Shown here piece by piece: positions 38,502-46,000 of a DNA stretch of 64,000 nt. How positions within the stretch are numbered: the first letter of the stretch is position 1; the number at the start of each line of letters is the position of its first letter. The stretch spans positions 124,001-188,000 of the forward strand of contig JAFTUG010000016.1 in NCBI GenBank assembly GCA_017466365.1. Direction: 5' to 3'. The position numbers were made by a program, and so were the translations under genes. The notes under the pieces were generated by a model. It ran no database searches. It was given only the letters and a program-made list of their open reading frames with translations, and was not told the origin of the DNA. Origin of the DNA: Clostridia bacterium. Lineage in GTDB: Bacteria > Bacillota > Clostridia > Oscillospirales > Acutalibacteraceae.

Positions 38502-38577
38502 GGACGTTTAGCTCAGCTGGTAGAGCATTCGCTTGACGTGCGAAGGGTCAGCGGTTCAAGTCCGTTAACGTCCACCA
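38502..38577 (+). tRNA. tRNA-Val (GAC)
   Basis: A 76-base cloverleaf: acceptor GGACGTT/AACGTCC, D-arm AGCTCAGCTGGTAGAGC, anticodon stem TTCGC/GCGAA with loop TTGACGT (anticodon GAC at 38535-38537), T-arm with GGTTCAAGTCC, discriminator A and encoded CCA. Its 3' end is the left attachment site of the element that follows. Confidence 0.97.
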
Positions 38578-38580
38578 ATG

Positions 38581-38614
38581 AATGCACGGGTATATTTATG
38601 CCCGTGCATTTCTC
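38581..38614 (+). terminator. terminator after tRNA-Val, supplied by the element
   Basis: AATGCACGGG-tatatttatg-CCCGTGCATT followed by TCTC. It stands in for the host terminator displaced to 45968. Confidence 0.75.
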
Positions 38615-38768
38615 ATACAACGGCTTTTTGAGAGAGTGAAAAGCAATTTTTCTATGAACCGATGTTTTTGCGTGCAAAAACGAGGTCACAAAAGCTGTTT
38701 ATATTCTCAAATTGAAAATTGTTGCCGCTGCGACTTAGTTCGGAACGGTTCAAAAAAGCAAAGAGATT

Positions 38769-38805
38769 GGGCAGACACGGTGTTGTGTCTGCCCAATTTT
38801 TTAGC
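38769..38805 (+). terminator. terminator facing the recombinase gene
   Basis: TTGGGCAGACAC-ggtgtt-GTGTCTGCCCAA, a 12-bp perfect stem followed by TTTTTT on the plus strand; the T run overlaps the recombinase stop. The stem can also act in the minus-strand transcript. Confidence 0.8.
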
Positions 38806-40471
38806 TTCTTAATGAAATCGATTCCAGTCTATTTTTGAACATATCAGCACTTACGTATGTTTCTTGATTTATAATTTTATATGTTTCAATAGCATCTCTG
38901 CTTATTGAAGTGCTGAACTCAAAAGGCTCAATCGGAATCTCTTTTGCTTCTTCTTCAGTTTGAGGAACAGTGAGTTTCAAATATAAAGTGATTTTACTGT
39001 CACCAACCTCGATTTTATCAATCAAATGAGAGAGAATAAGCTTTGTTTGTTCGATATTTTCTGCCTTTTTCATACGTTCTTTAAGCGGCTTGAGAACATT
39101 TTTTATATCTTCGTCTGTCAAATGTGAGTGGCAAGCTTTTTTATAGTTGTTAATGAAACTTTGTGAAGCAGATATTTTTTCTTCGATTTCTTTGATTCTT
39201 GAACAGATTGCACTACTGTTGGTTTCTTCTAACGCTTCAATCAGAACATCTCTTGTTTTAAGGTCGGCATCAAGACCTTCTTTTACATTTTTGTATCTTT
39301 CATTTGACATTAGGATGTTGGTTCTGTGTTTGTTTACTGCCTTTGTCAATTTGCTGATAGTTGCATCTGTGAAGAAATTCTTGAAAATTACATCAAGAAC
39401 AAAATCATCGACAATTTCTGTTCTGATTTCTTTTTTACGGCAAGAATGCTGATTGATTTTGTTGTTACATCTGTAGGTCATATACTTGTTACCTTTTGTT
39501 GATGTTCTCAAATTACCGTGCATTTTTGCACCGCATTCAGCGCAGACAAGCATACCCGTCAAAAGATACTGTCTTTTGGCATTAGATTTCATTTTGCCTG
39601 TAACCTTGCGAACAGAATTTGCTTTATTCCAAAGTTCCTCGCTGACTATTGCAGGACAACCGCCAGGGATTCTGATGATTTCTTCATCAGATTTGAACCT
39701 ATGGCTGTTACGCTTTTTATCTTTTCTTCTTTTACTTGAGCGTTTATTAAATACATAAATACCTTTGTATTTTTCGTTCTCAAGTAAATCGTGTAATGAA
39801 TTTTTTGCAAAATTATTGCCTTTTTTGGTCTTATATCCGAGAAGATTAAGACGGTCAATGATTTTGCCGTAGCCATAACCCTCTGCAGCCATTTCAAAAA
39901 TAAGCTTTACTGCTTCGGCTTCTTTTTCATTTATGACAAGCTTCTTGTCAACAACATCATATCCAAGAGGGGGTGGACCACCTGACCAAAGACCTTTGTG
40001 TGCGTTTTCTAACATACCTTTCATAACTTCACTTGAAAGGTTTGAGACGTAATATTCATTTATTCCCGATATAAAGCTTACAATCATTCTTTCAGCAGGG
40101 GAGTCTCCGATTGGCTCGGATACAGAAAGAACTTTTACACCATAATCAGCACATAAATCAAGGTATTCAAAAGTATCTTTTTGATTTCTTGAAAAACGGT
40201 CTAATTTGTGAACTATAAGAGTTTTAATCTTATTGCTTTTTATGTCGGCGATAAGACGTTGAAATTCGGGTCTTTTATCAGTTGTACCTGAAACAGCTTC
40301 ATCACAGTACCACTCAACGATTTTATAATTACCGAATACGCAGTACTGACCGATAGCTCTTTTTTGTGCTGCTATGGATTCTCCACGCTGTGCAGTTGAT
40401 GAATAACGGCAGTAGCCGACTGCAGGTTGTAAATTTTGATTATTATCGCTATTATAATTGTAGTCAATCAT
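38801..40471 (-). CDS. large serine recombinase (integrase)
   Basis: Cuts and rejoins DNA at the attachment sites through a Ser-DNA intermediate. It has 556 residues: resolvase domain with the catalytic Ser in GYCRYSSTAQRGESIAAQ and Arg in HKLDRFSRNQKDTFEY, recombinase domain (PPPLGYDVVDKKLVINEKEAEAVKLIFEMAAEG), zinc ribbon (LVCAECGAKMHGN..YRCNNKINQHSC) and a coiled coil (about 380-470). RBS AAGGAG precedes the start. It sits at the tRNA end of the element. Serine integrases rarely choose tRNA 3' ends, which is noteworthy. Confidence 0.95.
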   Translation of the reverse strand: MIDYNYNSDNNQNLQPAVGYCRYSSTAQRGESIAAQKRAIGQYCVFGNYKIVEWYCDEAVSGTTDKRPEFQRLIADIKSNKIKTLIVHKLDRFSRNQKDTFEYLDLCADYGVKVLSVSEPIGDSPAERMIVSFISGINEYYVSNLSSEVMKGMLENAHKGLWSGGPPPLGYDVVDKKLVINEKEAEAVKLIFEMAAEGYGYGKIIDRLNLLGYKTKKGNNFAKNSLHDLLENEKYKGIYVFNKRSSKRRKDKKRNSHRFKSDEEIIRIPGGCPAIVSEELWNKANSVRKVTGKMKSNAKRQYLLTGMLVCAECGAKMHGNLRTSTKGNKYMTYRCNNKINQHSCRKKEIRTEIVDDFVLDVIFKNFFTDATISKLTKAVNKHRTNILMSNERYKNVKEGLDADLKTRDVLIEALEETNSSAICSRIKEIEEKISASQSFINNYKKACHSHLTDEDIKNVLKPLKERMKKAENIEQTKLILSHLIDKIEVGDSKITLYLKLTVPQTEEEAKEIPIEPFEFSTSISRDAIETYKIINQETYVSADMFKNRLESISLRS

Positions 40472-40545
40472 ATTTATTCTCCTTTTTATTGTTAGTTTTT
40501 AATTACTTTCAAAATAATAATATATTTTTATTTTAGTGATAAAAA

Positions 40546-40580
40546 CGCCCGACTACGGAATTTTTAGTTGTAGTCGGGCA
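40546..40580 (-). terminator. rho-independent terminator inside the element
   Basis: GCCCGACTAC / GTAGTCGGGC with a 13-base loop; on the minus strand it is followed by GTTTTTA. It lies between the 49-codon gene and the recombinase, which therefore probably has its own promoter. Confidence 0.85.
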
Positions 40581-40619
40581 AAGTGTCATTTGTTATTTAT
40601 GTTTATATTTACTATATTA

Positions 40620-40769
40620 TTAATTGTTATTATTATTTTCAAATTCATTATAAATTGTTGTTTCAGCCATCATCGAAACCACCTCATTAAAGAGGTCATC
40701 ATCTGCAGTGATTTCACTGCTTTGTTTCTGCTGTTCATTAAAAATGACACTAAATTCGAGTTCTTGCAT
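40620..40769 (-). CDS. 49-residue acidic protein of unknown function
   Basis: A short frame read directly from the sequence. It starts at ATG 40769 with GGGAGGTGAATTT upstream, begins MQELEFSVIFNEQQ and ends in a run of asparagines (EFENNNNN). Acidic middle (TADDDLFNEVV). The strong ribosome site and the terminator immediately downstream argue that it is real. Size and acidity would suit a recombination directionality or anti-host factor, but that is speculation. Confidence 0.6.
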   Translation of the reverse strand: MQELEFSVIFNEQQKQSSEITADDDLFNEVVSMMAETTIYNEFENNNNN

Positions 40770-40881
40770 AAATTCACCTCCCAAAAGTTTTTTCTTTCCG
40801 AGAAACTCGGAACGGTTTTAAACCTTGGGATTAGCCGTAAAAAGCTAATTAATGAATCGAGCGATAAATAACGGAGGTTAT

Positions 40882-41268
40882 TTATGCAAGATAGATACCG
40901 ACAACGTTTTCGTTGCCGTCAACTGCTTCGTATTTTTCGAAGCTTATAGATGTTTGCTCCGTGAAATCAAGTTTGAATTTATCAATGATTTCTTTAACAA
41001 GCGGAGCATTGTATATAACGGCTTTGTTTTTATTCATCTTTACCGATGAGCCGTTTTCATCGGCAAATGCAAAGATAATTTTTTGCTTTAAATCAAACGA
41101 AAAATCAACTTTTTCAGCGTTTCCAAGCATTTCGTGAATTGATTTTGATAATTCCATTCTCTTGCCTGTTTTCGCATAAACAATAGTTAAGCAACTATTC
41201 TTTGTTGGAAATTTCGCTGATGGTTTTGCATCAAATTTCTTTGCGTTTTCAAATAACGATGCATCCAT
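40882..41268 (-). CDS. element protein of unknown function
   Basis: A 128-residue soluble protein (CLTIVYAKTGKRMELSKSIHEMLGN; KIIFAFADENGSSVKMNKNKAVIYNAPLVKEIIDKF) with alternating strand-like segments and no known motif. GAAAGGAG lies upstream. It is located between the 49-codon gene and the DUF927-like gene, separated from the latter by a strong hairpin. Confidence 0.7.
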   Translation of the reverse strand: MDASLFENAKKFDAKPSAKFPTKNSCLTIVYAKTGKRMELSKSIHEMLGNAEKVDFSFDLKQKIIFAFADENGSSVKMNKNKAVIYNAPLVKEIIDKFKLDFTEQTSISFEKYEAVDGNENVVGIYLA

Positions 41269-41401
41269 AATTGGCTACTCCTTTCTATGAAATTTTGCAG
41301 ATTTTTTAGTTCTGTCTGCAAAGAATATTTTAAAAAATTCAAACCAAAATTTCAATTCGCATTATATACGAAACTGACTTTTTGGAAAAATCAGGTCAAA
41401 G

Positions 41402-41439
41402 GTCAAGGGTCGGCAAAGTCGCTTGGCGACCCTTGACCA
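41402..41439. other. 38-base perfect-stem hairpin
   Basis: GGTCAAGGGTCG (41402-41413) pairs with CGACCCTTGACC (41428-41439); the loop can add CAA/TTG. A second GGTCAAA copy directly precedes it. There is no T run, so it is not a typical terminator. A replication or protein-binding site is possible. Confidence 0.7.
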
Positions 41440-41480
41440 AAGTAGTGATTTTTTAAAAAATACCGTTTTGTGCAAGTTGT

Positions 41481-43205
41481 CTAATTATCATACAAACGGC
41501 TGATTTTGAAGATGTAACAAGCTTGTTTTTCAGACTTTATGCTGAATCTGTATCTTTTATACAATCTGTCTTTTTCGCAATCGAGTATATTTTTTTCTTT
41601 TAATAAATTTAATAGGTTTCTTGTGTCTAATATCTTATTTTCTTTAAACACTTCATCAGCTTTACTTTTTAATATTATTATTTCAATTTCAGAATCTGTT
41701 TTAATTATCCTACCAAGCGGAGCTGACGGTGTTAAATCATAACAATTATAATCTGTTACAAATTTATTCTGATTTACTGCAACAAATTGAAGTATGCAAT
41801 CAAGCAGGTATTTTGTTCTGTCAGAGTTTTCATTTATATGTTTTTCGATTGAAAGTAAATAGTCAATTAAATTGTTGTCTATCTCTATTCCGAAGCATTC
41901 ATCAAAATAAGCTCCAGCTTGTAAAATGATAGCGAGTTTTGAGAATACTCTTTCAGTAAGTTCGCCTTTGCTTTTAAAAGTGTTCTTTTCTTCAAATTTA
42001 GTTATCAGAGCTTTTTGGCATAATAAATAATCTTCTTCAATTTTATCAATTTTTTCTTTCATTATAAATTCAATAAATTCATTACCTGCAAAGCCGTAGT
42101 TTTCAGTTACGGTTGATTTGATTTTAACGCTGTTTTCGGCTGATGTAGTGAAAGTATCGTTGAGTTCAAATACTCTCGCTCTGATACCGTTGGTTGAAGA
42201 TTCGGGAATCAAATCAAACTCGGCAGTTGAAATTATGAAAGAGGAAAAAGAAGTGGCTTCTTTAAGCTCGCTATCCGTGTTAAGGCGTAATTTATCCCTA
42301 CCTGCACAAAGAGTATATAACTGTTTGGTTACATCACTTGCTGTGCTTATAACAGCTTCATCAAGTGCTATTGTATGAGAATTGCATTTTGATGCAAAAC
42401 TCACCAAAGCATTGTTGGTTGCATTGAATGTAATCATTGTTGATTTATCAATGGCAGGATTACCGAAAACACTTGTAGCAAGCATAGCTGCAGTTGTTTT
42501 TCCTTTACTGCTTGAATTTGAAAGGTTTAATATTATTGAACCAAGGTCGTACTTTTCGTTTAAGAATCCAAGCAAAGGACTTGCGAAACCTGCAAGCATA
42601 ACTATTGTTAAAGGAATGCTTCCTATAACTTCCGATTTAACCATATCAAACCATTTATCCCTATCGCCTTTTGGTTTTAGGTCGAGACCGCCTAGATAGT
42701 AACTTATTAAATTTAATGATTCTGGCACAAATAACTTACCTGATTTAAAAACTATTTTGTCATTGATTTTGCACCAACCAAGCTTATTGTGCGAAAGGTA
42801 TGTGATAGCAAGCTGTTCTGAAAAACTGATATATTCTAAAAAATCTTTAGGATTGTTAGTGTTGAAGTAAATCCCATATTCAGCTAAAGTTTCAATTTTA
42901 TTTTTTGTAAGTACATTTCGGTCTATTGTTTTTTCAACAATTTGACCGCCGTTAAAATATGAAATGCTTAATTTTGCTTTTTGAGTATCAAAATCAACCA
43001 ATCTTTTTTCCACTTTTACATAGCTTGAAATGACCTTGTATTTGTTATTATCAAGTGATTTTTTACTTGTTACAAAGCGGCATATTTTACACTTTTCTAT
43101 TTTTTTATCTAATTTAATGAAGTATGGAAATATCGGGCTTTTTTTATATTTTTCTAATTCACTATTATTTAATTTGTAAGTTTCTGTAAAGTTAAATTTT
43201 ATCAT
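41481..43205 (-). CDS. DUF927-like ATPase/helicase, probable replication protein of the element
   Basis: A 574-residue protein. The N-terminal third (about 1-190) is unassigned, with CKICRFV cysteines near residue 38. From about 195 it matches the DUF927 ATPase type: GSIPLTIVMLAGFASPLLGFL, Walker A NSSSKGKTTAAMLATSVFG, HTIALDEAVIS as Walker B, and a sensor-like SFIISTAEFD. Such proteins occur in phages, plasmids and integrative elements as helicase-like replication factors. The start ATG at 43205 follows AAGGAGGTGAAACAG. The C-terminal 150 residues are unassigned. Confidence 0.75.
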   Translation of the reverse strand: MIKFNFTETYKLNNSELEKYKKSPIFPYFIKLDKKIEKCKICRFVTSKKSLDNNKYKVISSYVKVEKRLVDFDTQKAKLSISYFNGGQIVEKTIDRNVLTKNKIETLAEYGIYFNTNNPKDFLEYISFSEQLAITYLSHNKLGWCKINDKIVFKSGKLFVPESLNLISYYLGGLDLKPKGDRDKWFDMVKSEVIGSIPLTIVMLAGFASPLLGFLNEKYDLGSIILNLSNSSSKGKTTAAMLATSVFGNPAIDKSTMITFNATNNALVSFASKCNSHTIALDEAVISTASDVTKQLYTLCAGRDKLRLNTDSELKEATSFSSFIISTAEFDLIPESSTNGIRARVFELNDTFTTSAENSVKIKSTVTENYGFAGNEFIEFIMKEKIDKIEEDYLLCQKALITKFEEKNTFKSKGELTERVFSKLAIILQAGAYFDECFGIEIDNNLIDYLLSIEKHINENSDRTKYLLDCILQFVAVNQNKFVTDYNCYDLTPSAPLGRIIKTDSEIEIIILKSKADEVFKENKILDTRNLLNLLKEKNILDCEKDRLYKRYRFSIKSEKQACYIFKISRLYDN

Positions 43206-43516
43206 CTGTTTCACCTCCTTGTCGGTTATTTCGCCTATATTATAATCGCACTTTTTTATAAGTCAAGACCCTTCGCTTTTGTGAATTCAGAACTATGTCC
43301 TTTCACCCCTTTATCGCTTGGCATGAAGTCACTTTTAAGCCAAAAAAAATTTTTTTGAAAATTTTGAGCTTTTGAAAATCCCGTTTCAAGTCCAAAAAAA
43401 ATTAAAAACTCGGACTGCTTTTCGCCTTGACGAAGGCTGTGAAAAGCTTCTTGTCCCGAAAATCCGAAAATCCAAGGCAAAGTATGAGATTTTCAACATA
43501 CTTTGCCTTGCTTCAT
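43206..43516. other. gene-free stretch with two long hairpins
   Basis: AAGGCAAAGTATG (43474-43486) pairs with CATACTTTGCCTT (43497-43509), a 13-bp stem. GCTTTTC..GAAAAGC with an inner GCCTT..AAGGC lies near 43418-43447. The rest has long A and T runs. A 74-codon frame at 43256-43480 is not accepted as a gene. Together with the hairpin at 41402 these flank the DUF927-like gene. Confidence 0.6.
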
Positions 43517-44008
43517 TCAGATTTTGAGCTTTTCGATTTTCCACTCTCTTGCTTTAGGCGAAAGAGGGTGTGAAAAAGGACTCCCGTTTTTATCAATGAT
43601 TGTGTAGAGCTTATCTTTGTAGTCTGAAAGCATTTCAAGCATTGAGTCTTTGTGTTCCTGATGTGCCGTGTTTCTGCCGAAAGCAATCAAGATGATGTCT
43701 GCTTCAGAGCATTCCTGCAACACAACAGAACTGTTTACTCTGTCGCATTTCGGAACTTCCGAGTTGAGTTGAGAAAAGATGTTTATGATTGAAACAGAGC
43801 CAAATCCATTTTTTATTGCACCGTTTCTTACGAGCATTGTTGTTTGGTCAAGGATGAATTCATCTGCCGTGCTTGGGTAGGTCATCAGGATGGCACAAGA
43901 TTTCTTTTTCTTATCCCATTCCATTTTAAGACAGTATCTGTGCTTTGAGTCTTTGCTGAAAACGGCTGTTGTTTTTATTTCGCTTATTCTTTCAACGGTG
44001 TTATTCAT
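43517..44008 (-). CDS. DUF1643 protein
   Basis: A 163-residue member of the DUF1643 family: TTAVFSKDSKHRYCLKMEWDKKKKSCAILM, MTYPSTAD (the usual MLNPSTAD motif), then VSIINIFSQ and ILIAFGRNTAHQEHKD. The family is common in phages and mobile islands and has no proven role. AAGGAG lies upstream; three bases separate it from the previous gene, so the genes form an operon. Confidence 0.85.
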   Translation of the reverse strand: MNNTVERISEIKTTAVFSKDSKHRYCLKMEWDKKKKSCAILMTYPSTADEFILDQTTMLVRNGAIKNGFGSVSIINIFSQLNSEVPKCDRVNSSVVLQECSEADIILIAFGRNTAHQEHKDSMLEMLSDYKDKLYTIIDKNGSPFSHPLSPKAREWKIEKLKI

Positions 44009-44010
44009 TT

Positions 44011-44415
44011 TTACACTCCTTGTTCAAAAATCAAAAATTCCTCACGGTCAACATTTAAGAGCATATTTGCTTCAAGCTCTTTGTTGCATATACCCTCTGT
44101 GCATACAATATCAACCGCATAATCGTTATTTAAAACAACACAGCCGAAAAGAACATTAAATTCTTCTCGGCTGTTAAATATGTGTATTTTTGTAACGTTC
44201 TCAAATGTTATATCGGATGGTTTGCTGTTAATTCCTGCTTCGGTCAGTTCTTCAACATCGGAAATACCCTCAATTAAAAATATCGAGCCGAAACAAGTTA
44301 AGTTTTCAGTTTTTAATGATTGGGAAAGCACACTCAACCTCTTACGCAGGTAGAATTCCATCCGCTCATCAATTCGGGGATTGTCAAGGTCTTTTAAACT
44401 GTCAATCTTAATCAT
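44011..44415 (-). CDS. element protein of unknown function
   Basis: A 134-residue soluble protein beginning MIKIDSLKDLDNPRIDERMEFYLRKRL. The ATG at 44415 follows GAGGGCAAAGA and overlaps the stop of the tiny gene upstream; the longer frame to 44478 is the shadow of that gene. The central stretch SIFLIEGISDVEELTEAGI and the strand/helix alternation resemble no family I can name. Confidence 0.7.
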   Translation of the reverse strand: MIKIDSLKDLDNPRIDERMEFYLRKRLSVLSQSLKTENLTCFGSIFLIEGISDVEELTEAGINSKPSDITFENVTKIHIFNSREEFNVLFGCVVLNNDYAVDIVCTEGICNKELEANMLLNVDREEFLIFEQGV

Positions 44416-44548
44416 TCTTTGCCCTCTTATTCTTCGGCAGTTTAGTTCCGCAATAAAGTGACATAGCAGTACAAACACCGCTTATGAACATTTCTATTGC
44501 ATAGGATGTTGCGACGGTTGTTGCGGTAGTCAAAAAGGCGGTTATCAT
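44408..44548 (-). CDS. 46-residue hydrophobic protein
   Basis: Read directly: ATG at 44548 after GGGGGCAGATAA; MITAFLTTATTVATSYAI then EMFISGVCTAMSLYCG and a basic end LPKNKRAKND. One long hydrophobic segment suggests a membrane protein. Its start overlaps the stop of the 29-codon gene (ATGA) and its stop overlaps the start of the gene at 44415, so three genes are translationally coupled. Confidence 0.6.
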   Translation of the reverse strand: MITAFLTTATTVATSYAIEMFISGVCTAMSLYCGTKLPKNKRAKND

Positions 44549-44634
44549 TTATCTGCCCCCTTTCTCAAGACTTTTTTGTCTGTTACGGCTATGACACTAA
44601 AGCCTATAACAAATCCCATAATAAAATATTGCAT
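44545..44634 (-). CDS. 29-residue membrane peptide
   Basis: Read directly: ATG at 44634 after AAGGAGGAAAT; MQYFIMGFVIGFSVIAV followed by TDKKVLRKGADK. A single hydrophobic helix with a basic C terminus, like small holin- or toxin-type peptides, though no family is recognised. Stop and next start overlap as ATGA. Confidence 0.55.
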   Translation of the reverse strand: MQYFIMGFVIGFSVIAVTDKKVLRKGADK

Positions 44635-44652
44635 ATTTCCTCCTTATAGATA

Positions 44653-44684
44653 TAAAAATAACCCCATCGCATAAGCAATGGGGA
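44653..44684 (-). terminator. rho-independent terminator or attenuator
   Basis: On the minus strand, CCCCAT-tgcttatgcg-ATGGGG followed by TTATTTTTAT, between the 65-codon gene and the 29-codon gene. Confidence 0.75.
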
Positions 44685-44700
44685 AAATATTGTGTGTTGA

Positions 44701-44898
44701 TTAAAAACGAGATACAAAGTTTGGGCACTTAAACCATGCATCCCTAATGATTCCGTTTAATGTGCAAGGGTATTTTTCGGAAGGGTCAAAAGAAGCGAAT
44801 AAACGTCCTTCAATTTTTAAAGAACGTGGTCCTAACCCATTGTTATAGTTTCTGCAAAAAGCACATACCCTTGATTCCTTGCTATAAATTTTTTGCAT
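44701..44898 (-). CDS. small Cys-containing protein
   Basis: A 65-residue protein starting MQKIYSKESRVCAFCRNYNNG. Start at 44898 after GGGAGGAATTTTT; the frame continues to 45021 without a ribosome site. CAFC plus two later cysteines (PCTLNG, KCPNF) could bind zinc. Unknown role. Confidence 0.68.
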   Translation of the reverse strand: MQKIYSKESRVCAFCRNYNNGLGPRSLKIEGRLFASFDPSEKYPCTLNGIIRDAWFKCPNFVSRF

Positions 44899-44917
44899 AA
44901 AAATTCCTCCCAATGTC

Positions 44918-45106
44918 TTATTTCTTTTTCCATACTTCGTAGCATTTGGGGCATACGGGAAGTCCTTCGAGTTTTTTCTTATGTGTATTACACACCCATT
45001 TCTGACAGTATGCACATACATCCAAATCTCTTATGTAAAACTTCCTTCTGCAAGTGCCACAAAGACCGTATCCGTTTTGGTCAAGCGTTGTTGTATTAGT
45101 TCCCAT
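44918..45106 (-). CDS. small double zinc-finger protein
   Basis: A 62-residue protein with CGTC, CAYC, C-x3-H (CNTHKKK) and CPKC, enough ligands for two zinc sites. AAGGTG lies upstream. Neighbouring genes on both sides are 12-20 bases away, so this is one operon. Nucleic-acid or protein binding is plausible; no family name is certain. Confidence 0.72.
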   Translation of the reverse strand: MGTNTTTLDQNGYGLCGTCRRKFYIRDLDVCAYCQKWVCNTHKKKLEGLPVCPKCYEVWKKK

Positions 45107-45118
45107 TCAAAATTCACC

Positions 45119-45388
45119 TTATTTGTTGTGTCTTGATTTGTACTCGTTATAAGCAGCTTGTTTTTCAATTGATGAATAAGAACCGCCCCTGCTTGTAGCT
45201 ATATCTTTGAGCTGTTTATCTGTTTTATCTGCCATTCGAGCCTCGGCTTTATTCATTTTATCCTGCTGTTCATAAGCATAGTTTTCTAACTTGCCTAATC
45301 CTTCTTGTGCTTTGCCGTATACTTTTTGATATTTTTCATTATTTTCAAAAATGGCATTTAAAATACCGCCTATTATTTCAAAGAGCAT
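45119..45388 (-). CDS. small coiled-coil protein of unknown function
   Basis: An 89-residue protein starting MLFEIIGGILNAIFEN, then a charged helical region (AQEGLGKLENYAYEQQDKMNKAEARMADKTDKQLKD). Start at 45388 after GGAAGGTG. The hydrophobic first helix may touch the membrane. Confidence 0.65.
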   Translation of the reverse strand: MLFEIIGGILNAIFENNEKYQKVYGKAQEGLGKLENYAYEQQDKMNKAEARMADKTDKQLKDIATSRGGSYSSIEKQAAYNEYKSRHNK

Positions 45389-45406
45389 TGTCACACCTTC
45401 CGATGA

Positions 45407-45679
45407 TTATTTTTTTGCTATTTCTCTTATTCTTCTTTCAGAATAGCCGTACTTCTTCGCAAGTTCTTTGCTGTTTTTACCGTTGTATTCTTTTTTGATT
45501 TTCTTTGCTATGTATTTTTTGTCAAGTAAAGTCATTGGAAATGTTATTTGCTGACCTTTGAACATCGAATAGAATTGCAAAGTGACATCAATTCCGAATA
45601 CATTTTTTAATTCATCATATATGCCGTTTAAATTGTCGAAATCAGAGTCGATAACAACCATCTCCAATACTTTTGTCAT
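45407..45679 (-). CDS. Mor-like transcriptional activator
   Basis: A 90-residue member of the Mor (Mu middle-operon regulator) type: DLNGIYDELKNVFGIDVTLQFYSMFKGQQITFPMTLLDKKYIAKKI, then the HTH YNGKNSKELAKKYGYSERRIREIAKK. First gene of the element's transcription unit, next to attR. The start is uncertain: ATG 45679 lies right behind a TATAAT-like box, suggesting a short or absent leader; ATG 45661 and 45709 are alternatives. It probably drives the rest of the element. Confidence 0.8.
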   Translation of the reverse strand: MTKVLEMVVIDSDFDNLNGIYDELKNVFGIDVTLQFYSMFKGQQITFPMTLLDKKYIAKKIKKEYNGKNSKELAKKYGYSERRIREIAKK

Positions 45680-45696
45680 AATTATAATATAGGCAG

Positions 45697-45735
45697 TTGG
45701 AAATTTCATTGGAAAAAACTCTTATAAATTTCCAA
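45697..45735. promoter_or_regulatory. inverted repeats upstream of the Mor-like gene
   Basis: TTGGAAATTT (45697-45706) and AAATTTCCAA (45726-45735) are exact complements, and a further TTGGAAA starts at 45709. A TATAAT-type box lies just downstream on the minus strand. Candidate operator for the Mor-like protein. Confidence 0.6.
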
Positions 45736-45753
45736 ATATATCCTGATGTATAA

Positions 45754-45792
45754 AAAAGCACGCTCGGTGCATCAAGCAAAGAGCGTGCTTTT
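45754..45792. terminator. bidirectional hairpin near attR
   Basis: AAAAGCACGCTC / GAGCGTGCTTTT with a 15-base loop and T runs on both sides. It would insulate the element from outside transcription. Confidence 0.7.
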
Positions 45793-45851
45793 ATCAATAA
45801 TAAATTTAATTGTATCTATTGAAATCTGTTTAAGTAAATAGTATAATCCAT

Positions 45852-45879
45852 ATAAATGCTATATTTTTATTGCATTTAT
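45852..45879. repeat. 8-bp inverted repeat near attR
   Basis: ATAAATGC (45852-45859) and GCATTTAT (45872-45879) lie 70-110 bases inside the attachment site, a reasonable place for an accessory recombination site; this is inference. Confidence 0.45.
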
Positions 45880-45951
45880 GCTTGGAATGAAAGCGTGGAT
45901 TTGAAAACCCTGAAGGCAAGTATCAAAAAACGGTGAATGCCGTGGGTACTG

Positions 45952-45965
45952 GTTAACGTCCACCA
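45952..45965 (+). repeat. right attachment site (tRNA-Val 3' end copy)
   Basis: GTTAACGTCCACCA, identical to 38564-38577. The bases before it differ, so the copied core is 14 bp. Confidence 0.88.
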
Positions 45966-45967
45966 TC

Positions 45968-45994
45968 AAAAGCACGCTTTGGCGTGCTTTTTTT
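45968..45994 (+). terminator. original tRNA-Val terminator, displaced by the insertion
   Basis: AAAGCACGC-tttg-GCGTGCTTT followed by TTTTTC, two to three bases after the right attachment site. Confidence 0.8.
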
Positions 45995-46000
45995 CTTTGT

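Follow-up and report, generated by a model that had tools for sequence, protein, structure and literature searches.

Staphylococcal cassette chromosome (SCC) elements carried methicillin resistance into staphylococci, and their origin and their way between cells are poorly understood. In the staphylococcal elements Cch, ccrA, ccrB, SAUGI, DUF960 and DUF1643 follow one another on one strand. In Bacillota, SCC-like islands that encode large serine recombinases have been described at rlmH or ssrA, with conflict-related cargo and in some cases with DUF927 helicases; those of C. difficile and C. perfringens lie in ssrA (PMC10061031). Integration at tRNA genes by serine recombinases "is rare" according to one report (PMC3218068), and a later database paper states that no such case was known (PMC4383910). 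Both SCC-like Bacillota islands and the rare tRNA-targeting serine recombinases are already published. The present report concerns a stretch of 64,000 nucleotides from a Clostridia bacterium of the family Acutalibacteraceae (contig JAFTUG010000016.1, positions 124,001 to 188,000), referred to as the window. The 7.4 kb element inserted at a tRNA-Val gene of the window is very probably an SCC-like integrative element. Judged from its sequence, its core consists of a Cch-type helicase, a CcrB-like large serine recombinase and a DUF1643 protein.

The SCC-type core at the tRNA-Val gene

The target gene is a tRNA-Val(gac) on the plus strand (38502..38577; detected by ARAGORN, Rfam tRNA score 66.8 bits), which the element leaves whole. 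Its final 14 bp, GTTAACGTCCACCA, constitute the attL core (38564-38577, plus strand) and recur as the attR core at 45952-45965 (plus strand, found by repeat search). The distance from start to start is 7,388 bp. No exact copy besides these 2 was found in the window's own genome (2.06 Mb, 79.6% complete), for which a reversed control gave 0. Shuffled versions of the window contained on average 0.15 copies when up to 2 mismatches were allowed, and 1 of 100 shuffles reached the 2 copies observed as exact matches. All genes assigned between the repeats lie on the minus strand. An earlier note on the window had proposed an integrated mobile element with a one-strand gene set bounded by this repeat; the two exact copies, the ARAGORN tRNA, the minus-strand genes and sister copies at the same tRNA bear this out. 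The observation of a repeat-bounded element at tRNA-Val is confirmed.

Hairpins are found at both ends. Immediately 3' of the CCA, a strong hairpin with a 14-bp stem and a weak T-run (38580..38611, plus strand) marks the left end of the element and is probably a replacement terminator for the tRNA. A second hairpin with a T-run directly follows the far repeat (45966..45995, plus strand) and is probably the host terminator displaced from the tRNA. Such a displacement to the far side had been proposed in the earlier note and agrees with the hairpin and T-run from 45966, while the left-end hairpin (38580 on) had gone unmentioned.

Ten element proteins were scanned with Pfam. Matches above cut-off are Mor, DUF1643, DUF927 together with the Cch domain HTH_56, and Resolvase/Recombinase/Zn_ribbon_recom. 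The gene list given previously stands for Mor, DUF1643, DUF927 and the serine recombinase; its zinc-ribbon match lies below cut-off.

The helicase comprises 577 residues when read from a GTG (41481..43214, minus strand; an ATG lies three codons further in) and contains DUF927 and HTH_56. Its best solved relative is PDB entry 5dgk ("Active helicase", E 7.2e-47, residues 49-566), which we take to be the SCCmec Cch helicase, and the second structure match is the SaPI protein 8tch (E 7.5e-16). NCBIfam Cch1 is the best family match (1.3e-67), with 228.6 bits below the equivalog cut-off of 700 bits. Identity to the S. epidermidis SCC proteins, in each case over most of the length, is 28% for Cch, 30% for CcrB and 33% for DUF1643. 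On these matches the DUF927 protein is classed as a full-length relative of Cch, as a homologue and not as an equivalog. Cch itself is described as containing DUF927 and as related to SaPIbov1 Rep (PMC7581432).

A tree of 39 helicases, calculated with a quick method and leaving out proteins shorter than 450 residues, separates 15 rows, including the staphylococcal Cch and the window helicase, from 24 others with a branch support (SH-aLRT, approximate likelihood-ratio test) of 100. The other 24 rows come from phage, plasmid or unassigned contexts. In the stretches examined, DUF1643, Mor, DUF960 or p155 (the family of a 134-residue protein of the element) is encoded nearby for 14 of the 15 Cch-clade rows, L149 being the exception, and for 0 of the 24 others; several of these stretches come from short contigs, and for L082 only a stricter threshold was used.

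The large serine recombinase (38801..40471, minus strand; 556 residues) carries the Resolvase, Recombinase and Zn_ribbon_recom domains. CcrB is its best NCBIfam match (6.7e-60), with 203 bits below the cut-off of 900 bits. The third core protein, DUF1643 (43517..44008, minus strand; 163 residues; PF07799, E 1.6e-25), is the one with 33% identity to its staphylococcal SCC counterpart. DUF960 is absent from the window element, and DUF1643 is the sole member of the SAUGI-DUF960-DUF1643 block there. In the broad sense of an SCC-like Bacillota island, i.e. a large serine recombinase, a replication helicase and a short identity at the 3' end of a gene, the element belongs to this class. It falls outside the strict definition of SCC: the CcrB match is below cut-off, the target is tRNA-Val and not rlmH, and the block is incomplete.

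Sister copies and RNA-gene targets

A helicase search of 148 genomes gave a match in 13, the window's genome included. The core set is also present at this tRNA-Val in two congeners, G044 (82%) and G027 (about 60%), so that repeat-bounded copies occupy this site in 3 of 45 genus genomes. A third congener, G018, shows a 28% match only, which groups with phage-type helicases. A single scan of genome contigs with the helicase returned G044, G027 and one distant helicase. Each sister has its own 14-bp repeat, 8,760 bp (G044) and 7,853 bp (G027) from the tRNA end. In G027 both repeat copies bear the host variant base (GTTAATG for GTTAACG), which is matched in the acceptor stem of the tRNA.

A tRNA-Val match was present in 38 of the 45 genus genomes, and 18 of the regions were compared. 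When the G027 element is removed in silico between its repeats, unbroken matches run through the junction in G008 (932 bp, 95.3%) and G033 (335 bp, 98.5%). For G044, just short similarity extends past the junction (alignments of at most 165 columns, 76 of them tRNA). The 10 orthologues closest to the right-flank gene, from other genomes of the genus, have no 14-bp repeat in the flanks examined, except for G044. The locus L063 (G020:C6) contains two extra 25-bp copies of the tRNA-Val 3' end, 231 and 460 bp after the tRNA, which resemble what other insertions at this site would have left behind in the genus.

The relatedness of the elements and that of their hosts disagree. To the left of the tRNA, the window chromosome is 83% identical to that of G027 over 10.5 kb and 68-76% identical to that of G044 in the main pieces. 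The window element, on the other hand, is closer to that of G044 (86.9% over the first 6.2 kb) than to that of G027 (76-79% in three main blocks). The window and G044 agree in 910 of 912 bp at 41481-42392, in the C-terminal half of the helicase, whereas the N-terminal part is about 62% identical; the helicase is therefore a mosaic. As far as sequence comparison can tell, the sister copies were inserted cleanly and have been exchanged among species of the genus.

The recombinase tree (34 rows, 8 of them viral or phage-type; proteins shorter than 400 residues, e.g. L228, L232, L218 and L221, were left out) places the window protein in a clade of 11 with support 100/100, with CcrA and CcrB outside. 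Eight of the 11 clade members lie at tRNA-Val, tRNA-Leu or transfer-messenger RNA (tmRNA) genes. The identity with the RNA 3' end, ending at the CCA, is 14 bp in each tRNA-Val member (window, G044 and G027, the last with one base more), 12 bp in the tRNA-Leu(caa) members L126 and L227, and 12 bp in the tmRNA members L131 and L087 (three bases more in L087). A far copy within 10 kb is expected by chance with a frequency of about 1e-5 to 6e-4 per case (six sister cases; for L227 a word of 11 bases). For L137, also at tmRNA, no far copy was found in the stretch. Mapped on the tree, the target type requires 3 changes for 4 states, which is the minimum possible. A hairpin with a TATAT tip directly follows the RNA gene in all eight RNA-gene-targeting members; the tRNA-Val members have a weak T-run here, and L126, L131, L087 and L227 a good one. 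The recombinase gene ends antisense inside the tmRNA gene in L131 (by 131 bp) and L137 (by 79 bp), and in L227 it spans the whole 87-bp tRNA-Leu.

On the element side of G044 the sequence reads TTGGTTAACGTCCACCA, then T or A, and is nearly palindromic with CG at its centre. G027 differs from it at one base, which falls in this centre and is altered in both copies. The central CG would fit the central dinucleotide of a serine recombinase, a suggestion drawn from one variant.

Outside the clade, serine recombinases also occur with RNA genes in L222 (tRNA-Ser(gct), 12 bp plus 3) and L220 (tmRNA, 17 bp plus 1). PF00589, the tyrosine integrase family, was sought in 9 genomes, L087 not being among them, and has no match within their elements. 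In L140 and L217, which have repeats of 46 and 47 bp at tRNA-Met, a helicase like those of the Cch clade is present and no serine recombinase was found; they perhaps represent a similar core with a different integrase. DUF1643 and Mor are encoded there as well. In L225 a 23-bp repeat is present at tRNA-Leu and a serine recombinase only outside the repeats.

Gene order, remaining genes and cargo

With the helicase profile (E up to 1e-40), matches were found in 22 of 391 genomes of the class and in 33 of 398 genomes of the family, the weaker ones including phage-type helicases. Nineteen places were taken, and profiles built for this analysis served to map 33 stretches in all (L149 and L233 overlap). 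Those for p155, p54, the 65-residue Cys-rich protein and the OB-like protein contain L126 members picked by eye; the hits of these profiles in L126 are therefore circular, and other loci are unaffected. Mor matches occur in 20 of the 33 stretches, and 20 p155 members (E<1e-8), some identical to the profile seeds, in 17. Many stretches have a common order of Mor, p155, (DUF960), DUF1643, Cch, (an OB-like protein of 108 residues), p128 and recombinase. In L135, L226 and L229 the order on one strand is p155, DUF960, DUF1643, Cch and recombinase. Read as a circle, this is the SCC order, with p155 in the place of SAUGI. There is no detectable homology of p155 to SAUGI, and a two-sequence SAUGI profile matched 0 of 33 stretches at E 0.01.

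A wider proposal built on this order is tentative, and we consider it rather doubtful: the gut elements may keep an SCC-ancestral core that was opened elsewhere on the same circle, p155 may be an anti-repair protein (e.g. an inhibitor of uracil-DNA glycosylase) guarding the replicating circle, and the recombinase clade may be a source of tRNA- and tmRNA-entering enzymes.

Scans of viral contigs gave 0 relatives with the window helicase, 0 with the p155 alignment and 19 with the recombinase. The p128 scan gave one, the same contig as L067, and the DUF1643 scan eight, one of which (L155) is a staphylococcal-type SCC by gene content (helicase, two recombinases, DUF1643). L067 (IMGVR_UViG_3300031555_009535), listed as viral, encodes two large serine recombinases, p128, DUF1643 and Mor, and by this gene content it is probably a related cassette-type element. 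L087 (MT835879.1, 8190-14320), labelled Bacteriophage sp., contains a tmRNA gene, and tmRNA repeats enclose an SCC-like element there with a length of about 5.7 kb; similar sequence follows the repeat at both ends, as would be seen in a tandem site, and the helicase gene is split in two frames. Large serine recombinases flank a Cch-type helicase on both sides in L142 (G315:C57, 8376-14734), L218 and L222, recalling the two ccr genes. Terminal overlap, as expected of small contigs that are circles, was seen in 0 of 6.

The remaining genes of the window element are all on the minus strand. First in the set is the Mor-family transcription activator (45407..45709; PF08765, E 9.6e-10), followed by a 91-residue protein in a variable slot (45119..45394) and a double zinc-ribbon-like protein of 62 residues (44918..45106; DZR_2, E 0.013, and DUF3039, E 0.0016, both below cut-off), which is 74% identical in G044. 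The Cys-rich protein of 65 residues (44701..44898) has relatives in L126 (by eye, a profile seed) and L137 (4e-13). Two small proteins are predicted by eye to be membrane proteins: one of 29 residues (44545..44634), with an open reading frame of the same length in the same place in G044, and one of 46 residues (44408..44548), with the reading frame present in the window, G044 and G027. The 134-residue p155 protein (44011..44415) precedes DUF1643. A sigma-70-like promoter was recognized by eye just upstream of the helicase start (TTGACT, 16 bases, TATAAT; minus strand, 43239-43266); the part from helicase to recombinase may therefore be transcribed apart from the Mor end. A strong hairpin between the helicase and p128 (41401..41438, strand not assigned; repeat search and folding, z -4.98) is either a terminator or a structured site. 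The 128-residue p128 (40882..41268) is perhaps a DNA-binding protein with an MraZ-like fold. Before the recombinase lies an acidic protein of 49 residues, p54 (40620..40769), which is conserved in G044 and G027 and is, by its position, a candidate directionality factor. A second, weak HTH_56 match below cut-off is located elsewhere in the window's genome (G000:C6:159743-160009; L118, L143), at a locus with no match to the element profiles.

Structural, terminase, relaxase and coupling families are absent from the ten proteins (Pfam and phage-family profiles), in line with the previous statement that phage-structural and conjugation genes are missing, and no resistance family was found among them. 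The G044 element carries an Abi_2/AbiD protein (Pfam 7.6e-25; PADLOC 6.2e-23), the sole Abi_2 match in that genome; none is present in the window's genome or in G027, and PADLOC gave no match for the DUF1643 and 134-residue proteins of the window. The earlier note had suggested a defence function; a defence gene of the AbiD type is present in the G044 copy and not in that of the window. SHOCT and DUF6273 proteins occupy the slot in L131 and L227, and small proteins with no function assigned to them occupy it in the window. The slot between Mor and the 134-residue protein, together with the far end, appears to carry exchangeable cargo.

Alternative readings and comparison with known systems

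As an SCC-like integrative element, the window element could move as follows. The Mor-like protein would switch on the one-strand operon, and the recombinase would pair the two ends containing the 14 bp and excise a circle of 7.39 kb, restoring the host terminator to the tRNA. The Cch-type helicase would unwind an origin so that the circle copies itself. Transfer would depend on a foreign vehicle (a helper phage, a conjugative element or DNA uptake), after which the recombinase would reinsert the circle at tRNA-Val and the left-end hairpin would stand in for the tRNA terminator.

Several points weigh against this assignment. Excision, the circle and its replication are inferred, not observed. 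A polymerase or single-stranded DNA-binding protein (SSB) family, present as an A-family Pol-SSB pair in published SCC-like islands, is absent from the ten proteins. No iterons were found: in 14 intergenic regions the commonest 8-mers never exceed the largest shuffled value, which the region between p54 and the recombinase gene of the window equals (2 vs 2). In three of the 11 recombinase-clade members (L135, L226 and L229) the recombinase end lacks an RNA gene, and their target was not found. Among 16 unoccupied loci, no empty site matches the right flank of the window. The matches stop at the tRNA or no more than about 8 bases from it, except for two weak alignments at 80% whose 117 and 110 columns include the tRNA; the window copy therefore lacks its own direct empty-site proof. 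The search for an empty site recommended in the earlier note thus succeeded for the G027 copy, with G008 and G033 matching across the junction, and failed for that of the window. Furthermore, the host genomes are 79.6, 95 and 88% complete.

A phage satellite excising and replicating like a Staphylococcus aureus pathogenicity island (SaPI) and packaged by a helper phage is an unlikely alternative identity. SaPIs and other phage-inducible chromosomal islands are defined by a tyrosine integrase with packaging or interference genes, whereas the recombinase here is of the serine type, PF00589 has no match inside the element, and neither a terminase nor another packaging family is found in the ten proteins. 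The helicase also matches the SaPI protein 8tch (E 7.5e-16), and Cch is related to SaPIbov1 Rep (PMC7581432), but in the tree the protein groups with Cch, away from the phage- and plasmid-type rows. Mor-like proteins are phage late activators (phrog_532), AbiD is present in the G044 copy, and the sister L087 stems from a record labelled as phage; that record, however, has a tmRNA gene beside the element and reads as chromosome. It is quite improbable that the element is an integrative mobilizable element riding a conjugative helper by means of an origin of transfer or an unrecognised relaxase. Its size and the gut Clostridia setting would fit, and mobilizable elements with serine integrases are reported as common in gut Firmicutes (PMC6907783), but no relaxase, coupling or conjugation family is present in the ten window proteins scanned; the origin of transfer was not searched for.

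Very improbable is a decayed island that has lost its mobility and become fixed in the chromosome. Its compactness and the lack of a matching empty site for the window copy would agree with decay; against it stand the open core frames, the near-identical segments in common with another species and the mosaic helicase. The assignment as an SCC-like integrative element is preferred. Of the identities considered in the earlier note, "integrative plasmid" comes close, and the gene set is an SCC-type replication and recombination core and not that of a known phage satellite; the note's interpretation as a whole is partly supported.

Small gut relatives with the SCC core, such as the window element with less than 8 kb, can be used for comparison and offer a minimal model. 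Few serine recombinases have been reported at tRNA genes, and a Clostridia lineage now joins them. As integration tools, recombinases with 12-14 bp of identity at the conserved 3' ends of tRNA and tmRNA genes may prove useful.

A claim to the first serine recombinase at a tRNA was dropped, as two earlier cases are given in PMC3218068. These are mycobacterial actinomycete integrative and conjugative elements at tRNA-Leu and the phage phiRSM1 at tRNA-Ser; by description, they share a serine recombinase inserting at a tRNA gene and differ in being conjugative elements or a filamentous phage (PMC3218068). The ssrA islands of Dehalococcoides with DsiB resemble the present elements in that a CcrB-like recombinase lies at the gene of a stable RNA and a direct repeat is present; the recombinase gene also overlaps the RNA gene, as in L131, L137 and L227. 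As described, they differ in their DsiA, RecF-like and ParB-like accessory genes, the 20-bp repeat and the tmRNA target (PMC3146451).

The window element shares with ccrAB/Cch-type SCC the Cch-type helicase, the large serine recombinase and DUF1643, with 28-33% identity along most of each protein, and the short identity at a gene 3' end. It differs in its target (tRNA-Val instead of the rlmH 3' end), its single recombinase instead of two, the Mor-like activator, the lack of a SAUGI match and scores below the NCBIfam equivalog cut-offs. The SCC-like Bacillota islands likewise combine a helicase with a large serine recombinase but were chosen for Pol-SSB pairs, which are not found in the window element; the main text describing them uses the word tRNA 0 times (PMC10061031). 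Their extra reading frames are said to "lack synteny with SCCs" (PMC10061031), whereas the sisters L135, L226 and L229 keep DUF960 beside DUF1643 and the same circular one-strand order as SCC.

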